Source of the DNA: Paludibacteraceae bacterium
GTDB lineage: Bacteria > Bacteroidota > Bacteroidia > Bacteroidales > Paludibacteraceae
Assembly (NCBI GenBank): GCA_017478725.1
Contig: JAFVDD010000011.1
Span: 1 to 37,144, forward strand
Direction of reading: 5' to 3'
Length of the DNA: 37,144 bases
Shown: piece by piece, positions 1 through 9,118 of the stretch
How positions within the stretch are numbered: position 1 is the first letter of the stretch
Layout: each line of letters starts with the position of its first letter
Program-made: the position numbers and the translations under genes
The notes under the pieces: generated by a model
Databases searched by the model: none
Seen by the model: the letters and a program-made list of their open reading frames with translations, nothing else
Told to the model about the DNA's origin: nothing

Positions 1-87
1 CAACATGCGCACGAAATGCCTCGTACAGCCCTCCGCTATTCAATCGAGAAAATGCCAGCCCCCGAACGCAAAGCGTTGATGATTTAA
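1..87 (+). CDS. DNA alkylation repair enzyme, C-terminal end (partial)
   Basis: Only the last 28 codons are present; the gene enters from the left edge of the window and stops at TAA 85-87. The tail reads HEMPRTALRYSIEKMP followed by a short basic end. This closely resembles the C-terminus of AlkD-type HEAT-repeat DNA glycosylases of Bacteroidota, which usually end in a helix of the form MPRT-x-LRYAIEK. Enzymes of this family remove alkylated purines from DNA. The assignment rests on this short conserved helix alone, so the family is likely but the substrate is not testable here. Confidence 0.6.
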   Translation, partial: QHAHEMPRTALRYSIEKMPAPERKALMI

Positions 88-447
88 TTTTCTTCGCTGC
101 GCTCGAAAAAAAGGAAAGCCCCATATTCTATTTAATTGGGGTCCCCGCAAATTTTAATTTGTGGGGAGAGCGGAGCACATCCAAGTATTTACTACTAAAA
201 CGTGGTTTTAGTACATATACGAGGATAGTGCCCGCGAGAGAGAGCCCATATTTTTTATGCAGTCATGCGGTGAGGTTCCGTGTGGGAGTTGTCAAGACTT
301 GTCTCATAGGAGCGGGCGGTGTGCGCGGCGTGACGGAGAGCCATGCTGGGTGTGGGGTGTGCGCGCTGACGCGCGCGAGAGCCTTGCGGGGCGTGATATG
401 CGCGCCTATGGCGCGGGAGAGGCGGCAGAGCCGCCCACAGCGCAGCA
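88..447. other. Non-coding stretch with several hairpins
   Basis: No convincing gene is visible. Three palindromes stand out. Positions 143-153 pair with 156-166 (CCCCGCAAATT against AATTTGTGGGG, one wobble). TACTAAAAC at 193-201 pairs with GTTTTAGTA at 205-213. GGCGGC at 421-426 pairs with GCCGCC at 430-435. The segment 300-440 is unusually rich in CG steps compared with its surroundings. The first hairpin could end the upstream gene. The small open frames here have no recognisable content. Confidence 0.5.
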
Positions 448-624
448 GACCACTCCAAAGAGCCGCAGTGGGATAAGTTCCAAGACTACCTCAAGGGCGA
501 AGTCCGCTTCGCTTCCGTAGCAAAGCAGTTCCCGAAGGAGGCCGACGAACTCTTCGCCGCCGCCCAAGAAAATGCACAATGGAGATATAAGAGTTACTTA
601 CGTATGTTAGGAACTGCGTGGTAA
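448..624 (+). pseudogene. Pyruvate:ferredoxin (flavodoxin) oxidoreductase, C-terminal fragment (copy A)
   Basis: An in-frame stretch of 58 codons plus TAA reads DHSKEPQWDKFQDYLKGEV and ends QWRYKSYLRMLGTAW. This is the pattern of the extreme C-terminus of NifJ-type pyruvate:ferredoxin oxidoreductase, a protein of about 1180 residues, where DSKxPxWxKFQxFLxGEVRYASL precedes the final helix. Nothing upstream of 448 in the same frame matches the enzyme and there is no start codon, so this is a remnant, not a gene. A second and more broken copy lies at 3594-3875. Both share an almost identical stretch of about 38 bp around FAAAQENAQWRY. A complete gene is presumably elsewhere in the genome. Confidence 0.75.
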
Positions 625-641
625 TTAACACCTCTCCCCAG

Positions 642-660
642 CCCTCTCCTAAGGAGAGGG
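642..660. repeat. REP-like palindrome with purine-rich tail
   Basis: CCCTCTCCT at 642-650 is followed by one base and AGGAGAGGG at 652-660, a perfect 9-bp stem. It is flanked at 631-641 by CCTCTCCCCAG. Read on the minus strand this is a stem followed by CTGGGGAGAGG. A related copy in the opposite orientation lies inside a coding region at 20745-20775. Stem-plus-GGGGAGAGG elements of this kind are dispersed repeats in many bacterial genomes. Confidence 0.6.
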
Positions 661-673
661 AGATATAAAAAGA

Positions 674-703
674 AGAACGCGCGTACATATGTATGCGCGT
701 TCT
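674..703. terminator. Strong hairpin, likely bidirectional terminator
   Basis: AGAACGCGCGTACAT at 674-688 pairs with ATGTATGCGCGTTCT at 689-703, with a single G-T wobble. The 3' arm ends in a T-rich stretch. It sits between the plus-strand oxidoreductase remnant (ends 624) and the minus-strand gene ending at 727, so it can serve convergent transcription from both sides. Confidence 0.65.
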
Positions 704-726
704 TTATGTTTGTTGAGGAGTCTATT

Positions 727-1074
727 TTATTCCTCTACACTTAGATATTCCTGTAATTGTTTAAGGATTCTTGAATGGAGATGATATATTTCGTTATTAT
801 ATGGATTATAACCATCAGGGTATTCTTCATCATCCTCGTCTACATCAGGGAACATATCTTCCTTGTAACCACCATCCAAATAACTCTGCTGCTCACGCAA
901 TTCTTCAAAAATATCTTCTAGCGATGTCCCCTCATCAATTATAGAATCTGTGTTATCCTTAAAATATTCAATAATAGCATCTACAAATTCTTCCTCTGCA
1001 CGATTAAAAGGCTCTAATTGATTTTTATATTCCTCTAACTGTTCAAATACTCTATCGATTTGTTCTTGTGTCAT
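727..1074 (-). CDS. Small acidic protein of unknown function
   Basis: This 115-residue protein has no signal peptide and no membrane segment. It is strongly acidic, with a run of Asp and Glu near residues 75-87 (DVDEDDEEYPDGY), and otherwise looks helical. I do not recognise the family. It starts 14 bp after the stop of the minus-strand BspA-like gene, so the two are probably co-transcribed, and the hairpin at 674-703 would end that transcript. An acidic cytoplasmic protein could be an inhibitor or binding partner, but nothing in the sequence proves it. Confidence 0.6.
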   Translation of the reverse strand: MTQEQIDRVFEQLEEYKNQLEPFNRAEEEFVDAIIEYFKDNTDSIIDEGTSLEDIFEELREQQSYLDGGYKEDMFPDVDEDDEEYPDGYNPYNNEIYHLHSRILKQLQEYLSVEE

Positions 1075-1088
1075 AATTGAGTGAATAG

Positions 1089-2477
1089 TTAGTTTTGTGT
1101 AATATACTTTAAGAATACTTGTTCTTGTGCATCGGCAGTCTTCGCTGCCTTCAATTCCTTTGCCAACGGTTTTACGATTTCCGGATTAGGGATTTCTGCT
1201 AATCGCTTTATCAACGACTGAATGTCGTATGTATTTAAAGCCGTCTTTGTTGTGAATCCTTGCTGCACATATGAATCATAAAGGCTTATATATTTAGTCG
1301 CTATCAATCCCAAGTCACCTTTGGAGTTAGCAAAAGTCGATAGTTTTCTATGACTAATCCCAAGTGTCTCGGAGATATTGGCAGGTAATTCTGGCTCAGC
1401 ATCCATTTCAACAATATTCAAAGAACTCCAGCCTTGTGTAAGTGTTGGCTTGTTTTCATCTGCTTTATACCGTTGCACACACCCTTTAGGAACATATATA
1501 GTTGTTCCTTCCATAATTTGTCCATCACAACTAATGAGACCAGAACAATCGAAAGGATTAATCCCAAGTGCAGGTGGAATAGCAGCATAGCTATATATTG
1601 TTTTTAATTCTGTACATCCCTTGAATGCCTCACGTCCTATACTCACCAAAGACTTTGGCAAAGTAATTTGTTTTAAAGCAGAACAATTTTCAAATGCAAC
1701 AGGTTCAATAGATGCAACATTTTCCGGCAGAACAAGACTTTCCAAACTGGTGCATCCAGCAAAAGTGTGATGTTTGATAGCCTTTATATTAGCAGGAAAC
1801 ACTATTTCTTGTAGCCGTTCGCAGCCAACAAACGCACTTTCTTCAATTTCTTCTATAGAAGAAGGAATCACAATCTTTTGAAGTTTTCTCATTCCGCCAA
1901 ATGCACCAAAAGGAATCTTAGTCATGCTATTAGGCAGAACAAGTTCTTTGATGCTGGTACCCTCAAAGGCGTTACTATAAATATTCTTAACCGAGTTAGG
2001 AATCACTATGGATGTCAAAGCTTTGCAGCCCTTAAAAGCACGCTCACCTATATCTGTCACTCCTTCTGGAATAACAATAGTTTCCAAAGAATGACATTGA
2101 GCGAAAGCACTACCCGGTATGGTCGTTAGATTTGGAGGCAATACAATCTCTTTCACATTTTGGAAATCAAAGAAAGTGGAAGCATCAAACGAAACGATAG
2201 ATGGAGGCACAATAATCTTGGTACTAACTCTGTTTGTGCGACCATTTGTAAGACCTTTTTTCGCGATAGCTGTCACAGTATAATCCTCATCCTCATATCT
2301 AACGGTAGAGGGAAGAGTATATACTTCTTCAGTTATTTTATCAAACATTAAACGTTCAATACTTGCTGTCTTCTTTGAAAAGTTAATCCAATAACGGATA
2401 CCATCTTGCTCTATGCTTTCAGCCGAAGCGGTGAGAGCAGCAATAATAAATGCACAAAAAACTAATGACTTTTTCAT
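1089..2477 (-). CDS. BspA-like leucine-rich repeat surface protein
   Basis: The 462-residue protein starts at the ATG at 2477, chosen because MKKSLVFCAFIIAALTASA is a clean signal peptide; an in-frame start 33 bp upstream would only add MRRWDITATKQ. Residues about 60-310 are a run of roughly 23-residue leucine-rich repeats of the LRR_5/BspA (Treponema) type, with units such as LPENVASIEPVAFENCSAL. The last 90 residues are helical and lack LPXTG or a clear sorting domain. Proteins of this family are exported and often mediate adhesion to host proteins or other bacteria. The gene has the repeated leader motif (2492-2514) shared with two small secreted-protein genes at 5368 and 5797. Confidence 0.85.
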   Translation of the reverse strand: MKKSLVFCAFIIAALTASAESIEQDGIRYWINFSKKTASIERLMFDKITEEVYTLPSTVRYEDEDYTVTAIAKKGLTNGRTNRVSTKIIVPPSIVSFDASTFFDFQNVKEIVLPPNLTTIPGSAFAQCHSLETIVIPEGVTDIGERAFKGCKALTSIVIPNSVKNIYSNAFEGTSIKELVLPNSMTKIPFGAFGGMRKLQKIVIPSSIEEIEESAFVGCERLQEIVFPANIKAIKHHTFAGCTSLESLVLPENVASIEPVAFENCSALKQITLPKSLVSIGREAFKGCTELKTIYSYAAIPPALGINPFDCSGLISCDGQIMEGTTIYVPKGCVQRYKADENKPTLTQGWSSLNIVEMDAEPELPANISETLGISHRKLSTFANSKGDLGLIATKYISLYDSYVQQGFTTKTALNTYDIQSLIKRLAEIPNPEIVKPLAKELKAAKTADAQEQVFLKYITQN

Positions 2478-2491
2478 TTGCTTGGTGGCGG

Positions 2492-2514
2492 TTATATCCC
2501 ATCGCCTCATCGGT
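2492..2514 (-). promoter_or_regulatory. Shared leader motif ACCGATG-N5-ATGGGATATAA (copy C)
   Basis: On the minus strand ACCGATG is followed by a 5-base spacer and ATGGGATATAA, with the motif 25 bases from the chosen start codon of the BspA-like gene. Two further copies, with 4-base spacers, precede the genes at 5368 and 5797 at 26-27 bases from their starts. The role is unknown; a promoter part or a 5' UTR element are both possible. Confidence 0.5.
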
Positions 2515-2565
2515 TTTAATTGTAGATAATTATATGCATATAAAAAGAGCGTGAAACTTTTTCGT

Positions 2566-2697
2566 TTCTTTGGTCATACAGGATCCTGGACTACCTACAA
2601 GTACCAATTATCGAACAAAGCTCACGCTTCCCGTGAGCATCGTGCTGTGTTCTTGTACTTGTGTCAGTTGAAGTGTCCAGTTTCGTATGACCAAGAA
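2566..2697. other. 132-bp palindromic element with five nested helices (candidate structured RNA or MITE)
   Basis: Five helices nest perfectly: 2570-2579/2685-2694 (TTGGTCATAC, extended by TTC/GAA around one bulge), 2586-2591/2675-2680 (CTGGAC), 2597-2604/2655-2662 (ACAAGTAC), 2613-2617/2648-2652 (GAACA) and 2620-2626/2632-2638 (GCTCACG with a 5-base loop). The element fills the gap between the PIN-toxin gene and the BspA-like gene. It carries no open reading frame of note. It could be a non-autonomous mobile element, a structured RNA on either strand, or a large terminator. No target-site duplication is visible at its ends. Confidence 0.6.
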
Positions 2698-2781
2698 TTG
2701 CGCAATGCTAATATTTATGTATGTTGCCTTTTAATCGTTTTTTATCATAGGCGGTTGTTTATTTCAGTATTATTGTTTTAT

Positions 2782-3186
2782 TTAGTTCTCAATCAATTCC
2801 AAGCCTTCTTGACGATAAGGAGGGAACTTGTTGTCATCTGAAATAAGAGGCATCTTCATCGTGATAGCCTGAGCAATGATAACATGGTCGGACGGGTCAT
2901 TGTGATAGAGGTTCATCTTTCCATACGTGTACATCACATCCGGTGTCAAGGGCAAAATCTGGAAACCAAATTCGTCAGTTATTGCTCTTAACATATCTTC
3001 TTTCGTGTGCCAATATTTGCGGAGTAAGGATTTATTGTTGTAGTGCACTATCAATTCACGCAACGACTCATTGCTGACATAAATGAGATTTTCGTAATCA
3101 CCAAGTATAGCAGCAACGTCACGACTGATTTGTTGTGGATCAATCGCGTAATAAATAAAGATGTTTGTATCAATGAGATATCTCAT
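2782..3186 (-). CDS. PIN-domain protein, probable toxin (VapC-like)
   Basis: This is a 134-residue PIN-domain protein. It starts with the typical strand MRYLIDTNIFIYY, giving the first metal-binding Asp at D6. Other acidic residues expected in the active site are E44, D97/D100 (in DPSDHVIIAQA) and D117/D118. PIN toxins are Mg2+-dependent ribonucleases that usually cut tRNA or rRNA. The start codon overlaps the stop of a 46-residue upstream gene in an ATGA arrangement, typical for a toxin translated together with its antitoxin. Function as a toxin is inferred from family and layout. Confidence 0.85.
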   Translation of the reverse strand: MRYLIDTNIFIYYAIDPQQISRDVAAILGDYENLIYVSNESLRELIVHYNNKSLLRKYWHTKEDMLRAITDEFGFQILPLTPDVMYTYGKMNLYHNDPSDHVIIAQAITMKMPLISDDNKFPPYRQEGLELIEN

Positions 3187-3323
3187 ACAGTCTGATGCAA
3201 CGCTGTCTCTGCATATCTTTTAGCAGCATAGAAAGCCGGCGACAACCTCTTGCCTTGGCTTGTCATCTCCTGTTCAATTGAGAGCAGATACTCAAGATTC
3301 TCTTTTCTTCTTTTTTTAGTCAT
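3183..3323 (-). CDS. Probable antitoxin partner of the PIN toxin (46 residues)
   Basis: A short minus-strand frame of 46 codons runs from ATG at 3323 to TGA at 3183. It begins MTKKRRKENLEYLLSIEQEM and contains a basic N-terminus followed by two predicted helices. Its stop codon overlaps the start of the PIN gene by four bases. A promoter-like TAACTTTG lies 41 bases upstream on the same strand. Small proteins in this position normally neutralise the toxin and bind the promoter. It resembles no DNA-binding family I can name, so the role rests on gene order and overlap. Confidence 0.65.
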   Translation of the reverse strand: MTKKRRKENLEYLLSIEQEMTSQGKRLSPAFYAAKRYAETALHQTV

Positions 3324-3342
3324 AGTTGTGTTTGCTTTTTGT

Positions 3343-3371
3343 TATCTTTGCAACTTTCGGCTGCAAAGTTA
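3343..3371. promoter_or_regulatory. Divergent -7 boxes and possible operator of the toxin-antitoxin pair
   Basis: On the minus strand TAACTTTG (3371-3364) matches the Bacteroidota -7 box TAnnTTTG, upstream of the 46-residue gene. TATCTTTG at 3343-3350 is a match on the plus strand. CTTTGCA at 3346-3352 and TGCAAAG at 3362-3368 form an inverted repeat with a 9-base spacer covering both boxes, a plausible autoregulatory site. Confidence 0.45.
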
Positions 3372-3540
3372 CTGCTTTTTTTTGAAATAAGCAAGTTTTG
3401 GGGCAGAAATCGTTCAAATATATGCGTTTTTTCGTCCAAAGTCCGCTTGTGTGGTTGGATTTAGCGCAGGACAAGTGCATAAATAGGGCAGGCATGGCCG
3501 GACGTGGTATAGCGCCGTTCCTCTTGTGAGTAGGAAATAA

Positions 3541-3583
3541 CCTAATAATATCCTAATAATAACCTAATAATAGCCTAATAGTG
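3541..3583. repeat. 11-bp tandem array 1, unit CCTAATAATAA
   Basis: Units start at 3541, 3552, 3563 and 3574, three complete with one variable last base and a fourth degenerate. The unit is the exact reverse complement (after rotation) of array 3 at 23651-23694. The array directly precedes the second oxidoreductase fragment. Confidence 0.85.
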
Positions 3584-3593
3584 TTAGTCACTA

Positions 3594-3875
3594 TGCAGTG
3601 GCTTGACAACCGCAATGACGCCAAGATCACCAACGACCTTTACACGCCGATGGTGGCTGCTATGGAGAAATGCGGCTGCGACACCTGCAAGGAGATTCTC
3701 AAACACAAAGACCATATCGTTAAACGCAGCCAGTGGATTGTCGGCGGTGACGGTGCTTCCCGATAAGCGGGACGACTCTTCTTAGCCACAGGGGCACGAT
3801 TATTTCGCCGCCGCCCAAGAGAATGCACAATGGAGATATAAATCGTATCTCAGAATGCTCGGCACTGCATGGTAA
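3594..3875 (+). pseudogene. Pyruvate:ferredoxin oxidoreductase, internally deleted fragment (copy B)
   Basis: Two pieces of the same enzyme lie close together. Positions 3594-3758 encode QWLDNRNDAKIT through KRSQWIVGGDGAS, matching the region just before and including the start of the thiamine-diphosphate motif GDG of NifJ-type enzymes, with the CDTCKEIL segment that precedes it. A TAA follows at 3764. After about 40 bases of unrelated sequence, 3798-3875 encodes DYFAAAQENAQWRYKSYLRM and the end GTAW, the extreme C-terminus. About 200 residues between the pieces are missing. The end is nearly identical to copy A (448-624) but differs at synonymous positions, so the copies have diverged under, or from, a coding state. 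Confidence 0.75.
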
Positions 3876-3914
3876 TATAATTAATGTTCGCGCTTATGCG
3901 CGTATATGTAAGAG

Positions 3915-3938
3915 AGAGCCGCCAATTCTGGCGGCTCT
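3915..3938. terminator. Hairpin terminator after oxidoreductase copy B
   Basis: AGAGCCGCCA at 3915-3924 and TGGCGGCTCT at 3929-3938 form a perfect 10-bp stem with a 4-base loop, followed by TCTTCTCG. Flanking GTATAT/ATATAC sequences extend the pairing imperfectly. It probably ends what was the oxidoreductase transcript. Confidence 0.65.
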
Positions 3939-4124
3939 TCTCGTATATACTGTCCATCCTCAATCAATGTACATTCCGCCGATTCTTTCCTATTCAACAA
4001 TCTTGACATTCTTCTTTATGTCGCTCCGCTATAAAGTTTCGTCCATTTCCCGAGATATTATCCGGATAGAAATAACATTTTTGCATACAAAATGCAGATA
4101 TTTCGCATTTTCTCTTCCATATTC

Positions 4125-4155
4125 TTGCATATGTCATTTTTTTTGTGTAATTTTG
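4125..4155 (+). promoter_or_regulatory. Promoter, TTGCATATGTC / TAATTTTG
   Basis: The upstream box TTGCATATGTC (4125-4135) and -7 box TAATTTTG (4148-4155) are 23 bases apart, start to start. The same pair at the same distance occurs before the AraC gene (11203/11226) and before the four-helix gene (36467/36490). Transcription would begin at about 4160 and read into the structured leader. Confidence 0.65.
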
Positions 4156-4159
4156 CAGC

Positions 4160-4458
4160 GCAAAACAAAAGTTTTGCCGTATTTAGCCCGCGCTGAGGGA
4201 ATATGTCTTTCGGGCGGGTAATATACAGGACATATTGAAAAAGGCGTCTTAAGCGCTTTGTTTTGGCTAACCAGAATCTAGCAAATTCAAACTAACAACC
4301 AAAACATTGCAGCAAGGATGCCCATTGGTATGTATTTAAAGGTACGCGTATATGCGTGCACGTACATACGGCGTGGGCTTCAGTGTTGTTTGTTCGGAAG
4401 TTAGGGCAATGCTAGAGCCTTGGTTAGCGGAACAGCAATAGTGCAGTCCCGCTTTTTT
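4160..4458 (+). ncRNA. Structured leader or small RNA ending in an intrinsic terminator
   Basis: Directly after the promoter lies a region with many compatible helices: GCAAAAC/GTTTTGC (4160-4166/4171-4177), GCTAACC/GGTTAGC (4266-4272/4422-4428), CATTGC/GCAATG (4305-4310/4406-4411), GCCCA/TGGGC (4320-4324/4374-4378) and GTATGTA/TACATAC (4328-4334/4363-4369). The last four are nested. GCCCG/CGGGC (4186/4211) and AATATGTC/GACATATT (4200/4229) could form a pseudoknot. The end is a terminator: GCGGAACAGC (4427-4436) pairs with GCAGTCCCGC (4443-4452) with two mismatches, followed by six T. The terminator stem shares two bases with the closing helix, so the two may compete. I recognise no known RNA family. 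Confidence 0.55.
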
Positions 4459-4527
4459 GTTGTATCATTACTAACGGCAAAAGTTAGTGTACTAAATGTT
4501 TGGCAAATTGACAAAACAACAATCAAC

Positions 4528-4923
4528 ATGAAAAAGGTTAATCTATCAGCAACAATGGTAGTGATGGCGCTAACAATCGCACTACCAATTAATGCTCAAA
4601 GCCGCAAGGACAAAAAAGAAGCAAAGAAAGCACAATGGGAGATAGAGCAAAAACAACAACGAGAAGAATCTGAATTACGCCACCAATTGAAGATGGATAG
4701 TATTGCTAATGCCCAAAAATCGCATACCATTACATGTTATAAATTGAACCGCCTCAAATCTGGTTGTTCAAAGGTAACAAAGCATGGAAGCTATAACCCC
4801 GAAGATAAAATCTTGTTTGTTGAGAATGAGAGATTCCATGCAGTTGAGAATCCATATTATGGGGAAGATTCCACGCCTGGTCAGTACCAATATAAAGCAG
4901 GACCATATTATTTTAATGATTAA
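4528..4923 (+). CDS. Small secreted protein with charged helix, unknown function
   Basis: The start at 4528 is chosen because it gives a clean signal peptide (MKKVNLSATMVVMALTIALP, cleavage near NAQ-S at residue 24); the open frame extends upstream only through the terminator of the leader RNA. The mature part of about 107 residues opens with a Lys/Glu/Gln-rich helix (about 26-65, RKDKKEAKKAQWEIEQKQQ), then a less charged part with two cysteines and a Tyr-rich end. Charged helices of this sort after the signal sequence are frequent in Bacteroidales export proteins. I do not recognise the family. It is the first gene of a plus-strand series that runs to 8231. Confidence 0.65.
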   Translation: MKKVNLSATMVVMALTIALPINAQSRKDKKEAKKAQWEIEQKQQREESELRHQLKMDSIANAQKSHTITCYKLNRLKSGCSKVTKHGSYNPEDKILFVENERFHAVENPYYGEDSTPGQYQYKAGPYYFND

Positions 4924-4943
4924 ATAACTATTAAATTTTTACA

Positions 4944-5309
4944 ATGATGAAAAAGATTATTTTTCTACTCACTGCTGTTATATGTATGGCAATGAGCGCA
5001 AACGCACAACAAGTTTGCAGAATCTCCGATTCAAACGACAATGTAGAGGTGTTCTCCTGTTATCTGACAGACAACAATTCTACAGTAACTGTAACCGTTG
5101 GTAATGATAGCCAAAACATATCAGCTAATGTTACCATTACTGTTGAAGTAACTTATAATAGTTCTACAAAAAAGACGTATTCTACAAAAGTGATTGCTAA
5201 ACCGAATCAGACAACAGATGCCAAAATTAGCATTCAAGATAAGGTAGGAAACATTACAGCTAAATCTGTAGAGGTTGTGTCAATTACCGGCACAAAATGT
5301 TTGCAGTAA
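4944..5309 (+). CDS. Small secreted beta-rich protein, unknown function
   Basis: 121 residues, or 120 if the second Met is used. The N-terminus MMKKIIFLLTAVICMAMSAN is a signal peptide with likely cleavage after NAQ at residue 22. The mature part is rich in Thr, Val and Ser with alternating hydrophobic residues, suggesting a small beta-sandwich, and has three cysteines, one near the C-terminus (GTKCLQ). It follows the previous gene by 20 bp. No family recognised. Confidence 0.65.
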   Translation: MMKKIIFLLTAVICMAMSANAQQVCRISDSNDNVEVFSCYLTDNNSTVTVTVGNDSQNISANVTITVEVTYNSSTKKTYSTKVIAKPNQTTDAKISIQDKVGNITAKSVEVVSITGTKCLQ

Positions 5310-5329
5310 AAATATATTCAACGATTAAC

Positions 5330-5351
5330 ACCGATGCCTCATGGGATATAA
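5330..5351 (+). promoter_or_regulatory. Shared leader motif ACCGATG-N4-ATGGGATATAA (copy A)
   Basis: ACCGATG at 5330-5336, spacer CCTC, then ATGGGATATAA at 5341-5351, 27 bases before the start at 5368. Related to copies at 5760-5781 and 2492-2514 (minus strand). Confidence 0.5.
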
Positions 5352-5367
5352 GTTGGCAAAGAGAATT

Positions 5368-5700
5368 ATGAAGAAGATCCTGTTATCTTTAGTCGTTGCA
5401 TTCTTTACAATCATTTCAGCACAAGCATTGTGCGTAAGTCGCACTTTCTATGCCTACGATGATGGTGAGTATTTTGGCAAGTTAGAATTAAAAAGTGATT
5501 GTAGCTTTACCATCACAACAGTGGATGGTGAAAGTTTCTCTGGCACGTATCACATTAATGCCAACGAACTTGCTCCTGGTTCACAATACCAAATTGTCTT
5601 TAATATGTCGGATGGTCGTACGATTAGAACCCAATACATGTGGCCGACACAAGGAAAACAATGCGTAGATTTAGATGGTTTCCTTTTTGAAGCACAATAA
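5368..5700 (+). CDS. Small secreted protein, unknown function (paralogue of the next gene)
   Basis: 110 residues from the ATG at 5368. An upstream in-frame ATG at 5341 lies within the shared leader motif and would place nine residues before the signal peptide MKKILLSLVVAFFTIISAQA, so the internal start is preferred. The mature part has three cysteines and a beta pattern, with KLELKSDCSFTITTVDGESF followed by a segment ending GTYHI. The next gene has a comparable arrangement (NLICISGTTFSITNRSGDVI, then RYEIVG), so the two look like diverged copies with the same leader motif. Function unknown. Confidence 0.65.
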   Translation: MKKILLSLVVAFFTIISAQALCVSRTFYAYDDGEYFGKLELKSDCSFTITTVDGESFSGTYHINANELAPGSQYQIVFNMSDGRTIRTQYMWPTQGKQCVDLDGFLFEAQ

Positions 5701-5759
5701 AACGAAAGAATAGGAATATTTATCTTATTCTATTCCTCCATTTTAATAAACACTTTCAA

Positions 5760-5781
5760 ACCGATGCTCGATGGGATATAA
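5760..5781 (+). promoter_or_regulatory. Shared leader motif ACCGATG-N4-ATGGGATATAA (copy B)
   Basis: ACCGATG at 5760-5766, spacer CTCG, ATGGGATATAA at 5771-5781, 26 bases before the start at 5797. An imperfect hairpin at about 5708-5736 lies just upstream and may end the preceding transcript. Confidence 0.5.
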
Positions 5782-5796
5782 GTGAGCAGAAAATTT

Positions 5797-6096
5797 ATGA
5801 AAAAATCATTAATGGTTGTTTTGTTAGCACTCGTGTCCGTAATTGCAATGGCAGTTCCCGGCGGATGTTACACGAATTCCAATTCGAGACGTGGCAATCT
5901 CATTTGTATTTCTGGTACGACATTTAGCATAACAAACCGCAGCGGTGATGTTATTGCGCGATATGAGATTGTAGGTGAAAGCAATGGTGTATTAGATCTT
6001 CGTTCTCCCTACGGAGCTACTGCTACAGCATCATGGTGGCGTGAAGATGGCGAAGTATTGCTTAACTTCAACTACGAAACCTATATTCATGATTAA
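5797..6096 (+). CDS. Small secreted protein, unknown function
   Basis: 99 residues starting at ATG 5797; an in-frame GTG at 5782 would only add MSRKF before the signal peptide MKKSLMVVLLALVSVIAMA. The mature protein of about 80 residues has two cysteines, a predicted beta-rich fold and a tryptophan pair (ASWWRE). It resembles the product of the preceding gene in layout and leader, as noted there. No family recognised. Confidence 0.65.
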   Translation: MKKSLMVVLLALVSVIAMAVPGGCYTNSNSRRGNLICISGTTFSITNRSGDVIARYEIVGESNGVLDLRSPYGATATASWWREDGEVLLNFNYETYIHD

Positions 6097-6130
6097 TATA
6101 CGTGATTATTGACATAACAATATATAACCA

Positions 6131-6553
6131 ATGACAGTCCAAAGGAAGATATATATTTTTTTATTGGCTTTGGTGTTACTTGTTGTCGGCTGTGGAATAT
6201 ACTTTTTTTACCGCACTCCGATAATAGCATTTAACTTATTTCACGTCTCCAATGAATATATGTCATGTAATACACAAAATCTATTTATCTATTTTGTGGT
6301 GTATTGCTTGCCCGATGCCCTTTGGTACATGTCTTTGCTTCTCGTTCAACTATTATTTCTAAAAGAAACGGGATGGTTGAACCGCTTACTCATTGCTATA
6401 GCCTTCAGCCTCCCATTTCTCTTAGAAACAGGTCAATACATTGGACTGATTTCAGGAACCTTTGATTGGTTTGATATTATCTCATATTGTTTAACTCTAA
6501 TCTTATTCTTATGTTTAAGAAAAATATTTTTACACTTGCACTACAAATTGTAG
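6131..6553 (+). CDS. VanZ-like small membrane protein
   Basis: 140 residues with four predicted membrane segments, at about 7-27, 56-76, 85-103 and 115-133. The motif ETGQYIGLISGTFDWFDIIS between segments 3 and 4 resembles VanZ-like proteins, where an ExxQ, a short loop and a DxxD-type segment recur. VanZ proteins are linked to glycopeptide tolerance, but many relatives have other or unknown roles. The 3' end overlaps the start of the cysteine-rich peptide gene by 43 bp, implying linked translation. Its place beside a secreted cysteine-rich peptide could point to immunity or export; this is inference. Confidence 0.6.
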   Translation: MTVQRKIYIFLLALVLLVVGCGIYFFYRTPIIAFNLFHVSNEYMSCNTQNLFIYFVVYCLPDALWYMSLLLVQLLFLKETGWLNRLLIAIAFSLPFLLETGQYIGLISGTFDWFDIISYCLTLILFLCLRKIFLHLHYKL

Positions 6554-6771
6554 TAATTGGAGTATTTGTTTTTATTGCAGCAGGTAGTGGTACAGACGGA
6601 GCGGCTGTCTCAAGTGCAGCAAGAGGCACGGGACAAGGTGTCGCATGCGCATCTGCTGGTTACACATTTGTAGGATACTGTAGTCCTTCAGATTGTCCGG
6701 GGAAGTGCAAGGCTAATGGTTATAGTGCCTACTGTACCGGGGACTCTACCACCGCTTGTTATTGTATGTAA
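6511..6771 (+). CDS. Secreted cysteine-rich peptide with defensin-like spacing
   Basis: An 86-residue precursor from ATG 6511. Residues 5-24 form a hydrophobic export signal (IFTLALQIVVIGVFVFIAA), followed by a Gly/Ala/Ser-rich linker to about residue 43. The C-terminal core has seven cysteines at 46, 57, 62, 66, 75, 83 and 85. The last six follow C-x4-C-x3-C-x8-C-x7-C-x-C, the CxxxC...CxC pattern of cysteine-stabilised alpha-beta (CS-alpha-beta) defensins; the core includes CPGKCKANGYSAYC. The downstream gene encodes a membrane protein with a thioredoxin-like domain, suited to disulfide handling. A hairpin at 6780-6818 separates the two. It could be an antimicrobial or signalling peptide. 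Other disulfide-rich folds are possible, and the odd seventh cysteine is unexplained. Confidence 0.7.
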   Translation: MFKKNIFTLALQIVVIGVFVFIAAGSGTDGAAVSSAARGTGQGVACASAGYTFVGYCSPSDCPGKCKANGYSAYCTGDSTTACYCM

Positions 6772-6779
6772 TTATTAAT

Positions 6780-6818
6780 AATGTCAGTTGGGAGAAAATC
6801 ATAACCCCAACTGACATT
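6780..6818 (+). terminator. Hairpin between peptide gene and its likely maturation gene
   Basis: AATGTCAGTTGGG (6780-6792) pairs perfectly with CCCAACTGACATT (6806-6818), with a 13-base loop. Only a short mixed G/T stretch follows (GTAGTTGATTTGTT). It lies 9 bp after the peptide stop and 14 bp before the next start, so it may act as a partial terminator or as an RNA-stabilising stem that raises peptide output over the downstream gene. Confidence 0.6.
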
Positions 6819-6832
6819 GTAGTTGATTTGTT

Positions 6833-7720
6833 ATGATTAATTGCAAACGTATTCCTGCTATACTTGTGGGCTTGGCATTTGTATTATCCGGTTTAGGGAA
6901 AATCGGAAATATAATTGGTTTTCAGCATTTGATATTTGATTATGGATTAAGTATCTTCCATTTGCTAGCTCCCTTCATTGTTCTCGCTGAGATACTACTC
7001 GGCATCCTATTGATTTTCAACGTTCAAATCAGAGCTGCCAGTGTAGTAGGTATTTGTATGCTGGTAATATTCACCTGTGCTTTTCTATATGGATGGCTAG
7101 AAAATGACATAACAGACTGCGGTTGTTTCGGCTATTACCTACCTATTCCATCTTCTCCCACTCTCACTTTCATACGTAATGTGTTGCTTATTTTACTACT
7201 CATTTGGACTTATTATCATGCAACTGAATATACTCAAACGATAGAACAATGGGAAAAAACGACCATATATACGATAATGTTTTCAGCTACATTTGTAGCA
7301 GGCATGTCATATAAGCCATTTGCATTTACAAAGCATAGACATCCTTATGAAAATCAACTAATAACAGATACACCACTAGGATCTTACACCACAGCGGAAC
7401 AAGGAGATTCAGAACTGATATTCTTTTTTTCATATTCGTGTCCGCATTGTATCAACTCCATGGAAAATTTCAAGGCATGGGGAGCAACTAATGCGGTAGA
7501 TAATCCAGTTGCATATGTTGTCGTTGACTCAACAAACACGCATATTGATTCGTTGAGAAACTTATTCCGTTTTAGGTACCCATCTATACAAGTCCGCGAA
7601 TTAAATATCGACAGCACAAAGTTTATTGACGCATACCCAAGTGCCTTTCTTATTAAGAATGATACTATACAATATGTTATAATAGGAGAACTTCCTTCTC
7701 CATATTTGTTTGAATGGTAA
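6833..7720 (+). CDS. DoxX/MauE-type membrane protein fused to a thioredoxin-like domain
   Basis: 295 residues. Residues 1-130 contain four membrane segments and the motif DCGCFG (C96, C98), typical of the MauE branch of the DoxX superfamily, whose members pass electrons for disulfide formation or repair. A further membrane segment at about 143-158 leads to a C-terminal thioredoxin-like domain (about 180-295) with active-site CPHC (203-206) and the expected cis-proline in YPSAF (P269). The protein probably anchors in the inner membrane with the thioredoxin domain in the periplasm. Its position directly after the cysteine-rich peptide suggests it forms or shuffles that peptide's disulfides. Redox direction cannot be read from sequence. 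Confidence 0.8.
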   Translation: MINCKRIPAILVGLAFVLSGLGKIGNIIGFQHLIFDYGLSIFHLLAPFIVLAEILLGILLIFNVQIRAASVVGICMLVIFTCAFLYGWLENDITDCGCFGYYLPIPSSPTLTFIRNVLLILLLIWTYYHATEYTQTIEQWEKTTIYTIMFSATFVAGMSYKPFAFTKHRHPYENQLITDTPLGSYTTAEQGDSELIFFFSYSCPHCINSMENFKAWGATNAVDNPVAYVVVDSTNTHIDSLRNLFRFRYPSIQVRELNIDSTKFIDAYPSAFLIKNDTIQYVIIGELPSPYLFEW

Positions 7721-7736
7721 ATACTCAAAGTTAATT

Positions 7737-8231
7737 ATGCGAAAATATCTGATTATATTCTTTTTGGCTTGCAGCACAACTGCTATTTCAGAAAATAGGC
7801 GAACTATCTGTGCCATATGCATGCAAAACATGGAAGACACAGAAGAATTTGTATATAGGGCAGGATACGGACATGGTTATACAAGAGAAGAAGCCGATAG
7901 TATTGCTCGAAGAAACGCATACATTGCATTATTACAAGTTGCTCAAAAATCTGCAAAGAAATGCTGTCGCGAAGTAAAAATAGGTAACGAAGAGGGGAAA
8001 TATTTTTTCGCTATCAAATACTTTGATAAAAAAGAAAAACCTGAACGGTATTATTTTGTTCAAGATAGTGTCTTAATCAACACTCCTATATTATGTGAGC
8101 ATAATACACAAGGGAAGGATGGTACATTTTATGTTTGCTGTGTTTTAGGGGCATCCAAGAAGGATATAACTCATGTTTCGAACCATATTTTAAACGGAAT
8201 ACTATGTAAGATGGTATTCGATTATTTGTAA
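7737..8231 (+). CDS. Secreted protein, unknown, with LPP20-like helix
   Basis: 164 residues from ATG 7737, chosen for the signal peptide MRKYLIIFFLACSTTAIS; an upstream in-frame ATG lies inside the previous gene. The mature protein has seven cysteines and a helix TREEADSIARRNAYIALLQV, reminiscent of the start of LPP20/FlgT-N-type domains, where an Ala-rich helix follows a short strand. The similarity is weak and I do not assign a family. It is the last gene of the plus-strand series and is followed by a terminator at 8263. Confidence 0.6.
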   Translation: MRKYLIIFFLACSTTAISENRRTICAICMQNMEDTEEFVYRAGYGHGYTREEADSIARRNAYIALLQVAQKSAKKCCREVKIGNEEGKYFFAIKYFDKKEKPERYYFVQDSVLINTPILCEHNTQGKDGTFYVCCVLGASKKDITHVSNHILNGILCKMVFDYL

Positions 8232-8262
8232 ATAAGAAACTCATGTAAATCCAATATCCACA

Positions 8263-8293
8263 AGCGCGAGACCCGTAATGAGCCTCGCGCTTG
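8263..8293. terminator. Terminator between converging units
   Basis: AAGCGCGAG and CTCGCGCTT form a 9-bp stem around a loop of about 12 bases, followed by GCTTTAGTTTCGTTTG. It separates the plus-strand small-gene series from the minus-strand esterase unit. The remaining gap to 8378 shows nothing else. Confidence 0.6.
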
Positions 8294-8377
8294 CTTTAGT
8301 TTCGTTTGTTTCCCGCAATATAATTTGTGTCCGATGTTTATTTCCTTTTTCTCCCCCTAATAAGGTGCTCGTTACAC

Positions 8378-9118
8378 TCACGTCTTGCGGTCGTATTTTC
8401 GTTCCGACAATTTTTTTGACGGCAGAGAATAGGTGAGAGATTGGATACACCAGACGAAGGCACGTGCGAGGCGGATATGCGGATTGGCAAAATGGCCGCC
8501 TTTTTCCCAAACCAAGGTACAATGATCGGGACCAATTGTGCGTTGCAGGTGCTCATACTCCCATCGGATAGTATCGCCCACCTGCGCCAGCGCTTTGTTT
8601 CTTGTGAACTCTTCGCGGTCGCCAAGACTGAGATAGACGTAACGTGCACATATCTCATGCGCGTCCGAGAAACCTTTCCAACCCGTTATCCACAGAGACG
8701 GAGAAGCCGCTGCCACGGCATCAAAGCACTCCGTTTTACATGCCGCCCATCGTGCGAACAGACCTGCTAACGAGTAGCCACCGAGCACGACAGGCAACGT
8801 TGCGTAATGCGCGAACAAATAAGGCATGAGTCGGGCTATGATATAATCCAAGGTCTCGAAGGAATGACTGCCTATTTCTTCGCTCGTAGATATATTGGGA
8901 TCATGCCACGGCGTCAGTTCTTTCTCCCAATCGCTGATTTCCAATCCGGCGAAGACAAAGGGCGTCTGTACCGCAGCATGGATAGCGTCAATCTCTGCCT
9001 CCAGCGTGGTCTGCTCATGTTCGCCCAAGGGCTGAATGAGTATCACTTGCGGCTGCTCGTCTGCATAGATGATGCATTTCTTGCCGGCTATGTTCAGGAG
9101 TGTTTTCATTCGCTGCAC
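8378..9118 (-). CDS. Alpha/beta-hydrolase, putative esterase
   Basis: 246 residues, no signal peptide, so probably cytoplasmic. The nucleophile elbow is GGYSLAG with S116; GDREE supplies a likely catalytic acid at D167 and GGHFANP a His at H209, completing the triad in the usual order. The general outline resembles the predicted esterases related to enterochelin esterase. The substrate is unknown. It starts 15 bp after the DUF389 gene on the same strand and is the last gene of a three-gene unit. ATG 9109 (MKTLLN) is an alternative start. Confidence 0.75.
   Translation of the reverse strand: MQRMKTLLNIAGKKCIIYADEQPQVILIQPLGEHEQTTLEAEIDAIHAAVQTPFVFAGLEISDWEKELTPWHDPNISTSEEIGSHSFETLDYIIARLMPYLFAHYATLPVVLGGYSLAGLFARWAACKTECFDAVAAASPSLWITGWKGFSDAHEICARYVYLSLGDREEFTRNKALAQVGDTIRWEYEHLQRTIGPDHCTLVWEKGGHFANPHIRLARAFVWCIQSLTYSLPSKKLSERKYDRKT

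Follow-up and report, generated by a model that had tools for sequence, protein, structure and literature searches.

A putative CS-alpha-beta-like exported domain and its adjoining MauE–thioredoxin enzyme in Bacteroidales from the gut of plant-eating animals

What kind of domain is the small cysteine-rich peptide encoded at this locus, and what does the membrane thiol protein encoded after it do? The window, by which we mean the whole 37,144-nucleotide stretch of DNA analysed, belongs to a 2.16 Mb assembly that is 84% complete, and the named relatives bearing the locus are Bacteroidales, several of them labelled Paludibacteraceae, with deer, water buffalo, horse or goat as the host where one is given. 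The source is a gut bacterium of plant-eating animals with a small defensin-core-like exported protein. The three central ORFs (Table 1) lie where the first-pass annotation had placed them (6131-6553, 6511-6771 and 6833-7720), the overlap that it saw between the peptide gene and the upstream membrane gene amounts to 43 nt, and 61 nt separate the peptide gene from the enzyme gene. We consider it probable that the peptide is an exported domain of CS-alpha-beta-like type served by a thiol enzyme of its own, which most likely acts as its oxidase. The annotation's observation holds up, on stronger evidence than it could offer, and the locus is modular.

Table 1. Features of the window in and around the peptide locus (nucleotide positions in the window).
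Feature	Position	Strand	Basis or remark
Three small exported proteins upstream	4944-5309; ATG ~5368 to 5700; ATG ~5797 to 6096	+	blastp
140-aa multi-pass membrane protein	6131..6553	+	ORF call; usual upstream companion of the leader peptide
86-aa exported peptide, from ATG: hydrophobic leader and disulfide-rich core	6511..6771	+	ORF call, alignment
CS-alpha-beta-like core, residues 46-86	6646..6768	+	Alignment, profile search, shuffled controls
Strong hairpin between peptide and enzyme genes	6778..6820	+	Folding energy versus shuffles
295-aa MauE/DoxX membrane domain fused to thioredoxin-like domain; proposed cognate oxidase	6833..7720	+	Pfam, alignments, co-occurrence
DCGCFG motif of the enzyme	7115-7132	+	MauE/DoxX part
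CPHC motif of the enzyme	7439-7450	+	Thioredoxin-like part
164-aa exported protein with several cysteines	7737..8231	+	ORF after the enzyme gene

The window peptide is one of 13 six-cysteine peptides from 11 loci in Bacteroidales, a family gathered by peptide searches (101 relatives; 358 genomes of the family) together with an enzyme scan of named genomes. The other members are 30-59% identical to the window peptide, and every one of the 13 carries the framework C1-x13..17-C2-x3-C3-x8/9-C4-x5..9-C5-x-C6, a recurrence across 11 loci that is not due to chance. In the window peptide this framework reads C46-x15-C62-x3-C66-x8-C75-x7-C83-x-C85. The spacing proposed from the single sequence, C57-x4-C62-x3-C66-x8-C75-x7-C83-x-C85, is literally present but overlooked C46, which is the conserved first core cysteine (C1) and invariant across the 13 members; C57 is an extra, seventh cysteine that makes the count odd, and the other 12 members have no cysteine between C1 and C2. 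Conservation of the cysteine spacing among homologues had been set beforehand as a test, and it is kept in 13 of 13; G70, between C3 and C4, is likewise invariant. The leader has a hydrophobic stretch at about residues 5-24, with a possible cleavage site, judged by eye, at AAG/S, and a lipobox stands at the presumed cut point in two of the 13 members (L112 and the second copy in L083). Tandem peptide copies occur in G148 and G347. The distribution is patchy: among 178 genomes of the genus the core occurs in eight and a leader-only version in three, while among 395 genomes of the class, with up to 13 candidates per genome scored, only the window scored well and three others reached 0.003-0.009. 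Apart from the homologues named below, peptide matches in the weak range (E about 1e-4 to 1) were left out of the counts, as was L122 (0.0026); L119 and L120 share just the leader type and the upstream gene.

Does this core resemble CS-alpha-beta domains in more than the spacing of its cysteines? The window peptide alone, searched against the PDB, has heliomicin as its top hit without reaching significance (E 0.28), whereas a full-length family profile finds a plant defensin best (E 0.0006); at E<=10 that profile lists 40 hits, of which 22 are defensin-like and 18 are antibody chains, with nothing but defensin-like chains among the top 14. A profile of the core again finds a plant defensin best (E 3.2e-5, 42 of 46 positions), and at E<=1 all but one of its 16 hits are defensins or defensin-like, the exception being an antibody. 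As a control, the alignment behind this profile was permuted over its 32 gap-free non-cysteine columns, with the cysteines fixed (chance left the conserved glycine that lies between C3 and C4 where it was in shuffle A9), and three such shuffled core profiles gave at E<=10 one hit (scorpine, 0.15), none and none. Since the shuffled controls lose the PDB matches, the likeness exceeds cysteine spacing, and the CS-alpha-beta-like core suggested earlier is supported both by these matches and by the framework in 13 of 13 members. No member reaches the curated Pfam cut-off of any defensin family; below threshold, Defensin_2 (best 0.0057) and Gamma-thionin (best 0.013) each match three of the 13, and the lowest Pfam E among them belongs to the non-defensin Chorion_2 (0.00026, one member). 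The GxC of the gamma-core precedes C4 in one of the 13, and core net charge runs from -1 to +5, with ten members between -1 and +1, the others at +2, +3 and +5, and the window peptide at 0. In heliomicin, C1 lies nearer the helix than the x13-17 of these peptides. Because GxC is rare and charge near neutral, we name the core CS-alpha-beta-like, a putative exported domain of that fold, and refrain from classing it among the defensins.

Four homologues carry fewer core cysteines: L116 keeps C2, C3, C5 and C6, L118 has C2, C5 and one extra, L073 has C1, C4 and C5, and L117 has none. Without their leaders they match the core profile at 3.8e-10 (L116), 2.5e-6 (L117), 9.6e-6 (L118) and 6.3e-5 (L073), against a best value of 0.0091 in 10,000 shuffles of the four cores. 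In a larger pre-selected ORF set L073 stands at 3.9e-4 and two spurious ORFs unlike exported peptides, L062 and L059, reach 3-4e-4 (L062 lies in another frame of a long ORF), and L073 is accepted on account of the leader it carries and the genes around it. Searched by itself, the L117 core, which has no cysteines, finds no PDB match. The textbook pairing C1-C4, C2-C5, C3-C6, which was not derived from these homologues, is the best of 15 pairings when tested against cysteine states entered by hand from the alignment, with one mismatch in 12 (C5 retained in L073) versus three for the next best, a comparison that draws on the four homologues only.

The MauE/DoxX label given to the downstream protein is borne out by Pfam (MauE 2.3e-20, 73.6 bits versus a cut-off of 27; DoxX 5.8e-7). 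Its assignment to thioredoxin holds in part: the CxxC is present, but the matches are sub-threshold (Redoxin 0.15, TrbB 0.00075, DsbA 0.011). Against NCBIfam BT_3928 the enzyme scores 81 bits, below the cut-off of 250. Full-length MauE–thioredoxin proteins (E 7.3e-126 or better) were found at nine loci in eight of the 15 genomes searched. In a co-occurrence test restricted to loci discovered through the peptide alone, the full-length enzyme adjoins the peptide at nine of nine six-cysteine loci, which upholds the dedicated partner proposed by the first-pass annotation and goes against the outcome named there as refuting it, DoxX homologues that never neighbour such peptides. The enzyme was found in none of seven genomes with cysteine-poor cores (G159, G426, G465 and G549) or no core (G040, G050 and G112), its absence being less sure in the four of these that are just 68-83% complete; each of the seven gave one match (E 7e-16 to 2.3e-12), to a longer DoxX-type gene presumably of the BT_3928 type. 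Fisher tests, which ignore kinship, give p = 8.7e-5 for 9/9 versus 0/7 and p = 0.0014 for 9/9 versus 0/4. This co-loss of enzyme and cysteines shows a thiol role for the enzyme, not the direction of that role. At L116 the adjoining gene is thioredoxin-like and without MauE. A separate membrane-anchored thioredoxin-like gene was also observed at L149 (G195:C47:19286-19738); its likeness to the enzyme is confined to the thioredoxin half (E 2.5e-19).

Beyond the family of the window peptide, an exported cysteine-rich mini-protein adjoins MauE–thioredoxin at 29 of 36 loci of the named genomes, a scripted count whose filter asks for a neighbouring exported ORF, 40-130 aa long, that has at least four cysteines after residue 24; one client visible by eye (L099) was missed by the filter. 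The same filter picked out 0 of 14 longer DoxX-type genes of related genomes, 1 of 59 other long ORFs (drawn from 25 of the 36 MauE–thioredoxin loci) and, within the window, 0 of 25, together 1 of 98 (Fisher 1.1e-21 versus 29/36, kinship ignored). Ten of the 36 loci are of the class of the window peptide. By eye, the other 19 filter-positive loci fall into two further classes, with CTCT...C...C upstream or with 8-10 cysteines downstream (L089-L113), the downstream class showing the motif HGxCY...YC...C; a lipobox, by a simple pattern, occurs in 14 of these 19 clients. DCGCFG is present in 37 of 37 ORFs by construction, since the scan was seeded on [GD][IV]TDCGCF, and the 36 ORFs with a later CxxC vary in that motif (CPHC in 16, CPYC in five, others in the rest). 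Active site and client class go together: CxHC in ten of 11 enzymes of the window-peptide class (window included) and CPYC in the other, CPHC, CPYC or CQHC in the second class, and CxSC, CxGC or CPAC in the third, a match behind which common descent may lie.

The upstream membrane gene had been called VanZ-like, a label that we drop: none of the six members of A1 and none of six further relatives matches Pfam VanZ. A distant relative scores 17.1 bits, below the cut-off of 30.1. Apart from one weak DUF hit in one of the six members, the protein matches no Pfam family. All 11 six-cysteine loci have the gene upstream, as do three leader-only loci and G159 and G465; it is absent from 3.2 kb around the L118 homologue, and it is not visible at L116, where the peptide starts near a contig end. 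It is likewise found ahead of a zinc-finger-like payload, of 143-aa lipoproteins and of the L117 peptide, whose core has no cysteines. The leader-only loci (L024, L025 and L069, in G040, G050 and G112) encode peptides of 49-52 residues from ATG that consist of leader and linker, contain no cysteines and end in NN or DN, and there an FGE-like gene occupies the place of the enzyme (Pfam FGE-sulfatase 4.6e-41 for one). In a tree of which 12 of 19 inner branches are poorly supported, their membrane genes group with those of the window, G019, G195 and two G148 loci in a supported clade (100/99, 8 rows), which places the change inside that clade. As the membrane gene persists where the core is gone, its behaviour is not that of core-specific immunity, which tells against the antimicrobial-with-immunity system that had been envisaged. 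Its distribution, which follows the leader and not the cysteines, suggests that the protein may be a leader-handling companion. Small membrane proteins of a similar kind are encoded at L075-L079, L119 and L120, where their genes overlap or lie next to the starts of unrelated exported proteins, several of which have leaders ending ALGC or alike.

Other neighbours appear less tightly bound to the peptide. The 164-aa protein encoded after the enzyme has counterparts of 53-55% identity in the leader-only loci L024 and L025, no match in the remaining 15 of 17 loci searched and no Pfam family above cut-off, and it probably lies outside the core system. The three small exported proteins encoded upstream (4944..6096) occur in varying order in some related loci. 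Pfam scans of eight neighbouring proteins revealed no exporter. Carriage by phages or plasmids was considered and rejected: the peptide has no match in phages or plasmids, and the viral contigs are without a MauE–thioredoxin relative. One Parabacteroides plasmid match covers 52% of the enzyme at 31% identity and is annotated BT_3928.

The hairpin between the peptide and enzyme genes folds at -23.3, versus a mean of -9.6 (sd 2.6) for 200 base shuffles, and hairpins of unrelated sequence, well below shuffled energy, occupy the same place in eight of 11 loci, followed by a U run in L070, L071 and L082; the three loci with short peptide–enzyme gaps have none. The hairpin may cause partial termination, which would keep the catalyst below its client. 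A different, repeated RNA hairpin was observed in the window at about 5330-5360 and 5760-5790 on the + strand and 2513-2480 on the - strand, and also in L024, L025, L068-L072, L087 and L090. It consists of ACCGA(T/C)G, variable arms and a constant ATGGGATATAA, and most copies precede, by about 5-20 nt, the start codon of a gene for a small exported protein. In 16 of its 18 distinct strings (one was cut by a locus end, and one was identical after trimming) the arms pair in 47 of 48 cells at three stem positions, and both arms vary; 5000 shuffles gave a mean of 29.8 and a maximum of 41. Window positions 1-9000 gave no Rfam match at E<=0.1.

Family, cysteine framework, co-occurrence and gene order are observed directly, and on them we build the following scheme. 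The leader would direct the peptide into the Sec route and be cut near AAG/S; the C-terminal ~40 residues would fold as strand, helix, strand, strand, held by bonds C46-C75, C62-C83 and C66-C85. Once outside the cytoplasm, the peptide would be oxidized by the thioredoxin domain (CPHC); this domain would in turn be re-oxidized by the MauE/DoxX part (DCGCFG), from which electrons would pass to membrane quinones. CPHC is the active site of E. coli DsbA, and DsbB and VKOR re-oxidize thioredoxin-type partners with electrons going to quinones; by analogy, the fusion of a membrane thiol domain to a thioredoxin fits a quinone-drawing oxidase. The intergenic hairpin might allow the peptide to be made in excess over the enzyme, and the mature domain would most likely remain periplasmic or at the cell surface, serving there in binding or as a structural element.

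How firmly the oxidase reading holds depends on what else the same data would allow. The enzyme might instead reduce or isomerize the peptide or sense its redox state, since its motifs leave the direction unfixed, the co-loss fits equally, and the active sites across the 36 ORFs are varied; we regard this as rather unlikely, as the MauE/DoxX–thioredoxin fusion recalls the DsbB or VKOR partners and CxHC is so regular in the window-peptide class. Nor need enzyme and cysteines be functionally bound at all, if linked genes of shared descent were simply lost together. The loci are few and related, and the Fisher tests ignore kinship; however, G159 keeps leader, membrane gene and cysteine-poor core without the enzyme, and three client classes adjoin the same enzyme family, so that we hold mere shared descent to be distinctly improbable.

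Two further alternatives concern the peptide itself. The core could have a fold of its own that merely converged on a CxxxC...CxC resembling CS-alpha-beta, as the lack of any Pfam defensin family at cut-off and the scarcity of GxC would allow, but the vanishing of the PDB matches in shuffled controls and a cysteine co-loss that favours the CS-alpha-beta pairing make this an unlikely account. A secreted defensin-like bacteriocin, folded by the enzyme and with the upstream membrane gene as immunity, would suit the CS-alpha-beta-like core, the tandem copies in G148 and G347 and the patchy presence in the genus. Against it stand the near-neutral charge of ten of the 13 cores, GxC in one member and a lipobox in two, the membrane gene found before leader-only peptides and unrelated exported proteins, and the lack of an exporter among the eight neighbours scanned; we find it quite improbable. 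With GxC so rare, charge near zero and no covarying immunity gene, antimicrobial action is unsupported, and to propose it is a guess.

The preferred reading, an exported domain with its own oxidase, can be set beside several known systems. DsbB and VKOR–thioredoxin fusions are kindred redox membrane systems. With the BT_3928 family and other MauE/DoxX redox proteins the window enzyme shares MauE above cut-off and DCGCFG, but it has 295 aa, its own CxxC thioredoxin part and 81 bits versus the 250 required, and enzymes of its type adjoin cysteine-rich clients, whereas the 14 longer DoxX-type genes do not. The CS-alpha-beta (cis-) defensins of plants, insects and fungi (Gamma-thionin, Defensin_2; PDB 6dmz, 7c2p, 1i2u) have in common with the window family the C...CxxxC...C...CxC framework, a profile likeness beyond spacing and a hydrophobic leader; in contrast, the window family mostly lacks GxC, is mostly near neutral, and has an adjoining thiol enzyme and homologues with few or no cysteines. 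Bacterial defensins (classes I-V) and actifensins are, like the window family, bacterial and short, with three disulfides expected. A survey lists 74 bacterial defensins from Proteobacteria, Acidobacteria and Actinobacteria, none from Bacteroidota, all carrying GxC, and describes a screen that discarded proteins with predicted transmembrane segments; 'bacteroid' does not occur in its text (PMC11561630). The actifensin operon has predicted ABC transporter genes (PMC6989792), whereas at the window locus a MauE–thioredoxin gene follows the peptide. The cysteine-stabilized helix peptides that Zhu proposed as defensin ancestors, as retold in the survey (PMC11561630), resemble L116, which keeps exactly C2, C3, C5 and C6, as expected of a two-bond motif; unlike those peptides as retold there, the zero- to three-bond forms here are homologous within one bacterial order. 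Literature searches of partial coverage (defensin-like in Bacteroidetes, MauE with DoxX and thioredoxin, NVEALA, BT_3928) found no paper, leaving novelty unproven; a looser Bacteroidota search held no title on such a peptide among the matches listed, and a single narrow search on how disulfides form in Bacteroides yielded no paper.

How the defensin fold arose is an open question, which this locus ties to disulfide formation in Bacteroides: it brings together a client peptide that exists in nature with and without its cysteines, a candidate oxidase dedicated to it, and an enzyme family with three classes of client. Both questions can be tested in laboratory strains with a few small genes. It is possible, and we put it forward tentatively, that homologues of one strand-helix-strand-strand domain with zero, one, two and three expected disulfides coexist in a single bacterial order, the full set tracking a private MauE–thioredoxin enzyme, so that living relatives would show the CS-alpha-beta fold at successive stages of being built up or taken apart. 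If the cysteine-free form is ancestral, a defensin-like architecture would have arisen by adding cysteines to an ordinary small domain once an oxidase was at hand, an origin separate from that of eukaryotic defensins. Were the series reading true, the MauE–thioredoxin family would be a general Bacteroidales system for putting disulfides on private exported mini-proteins.
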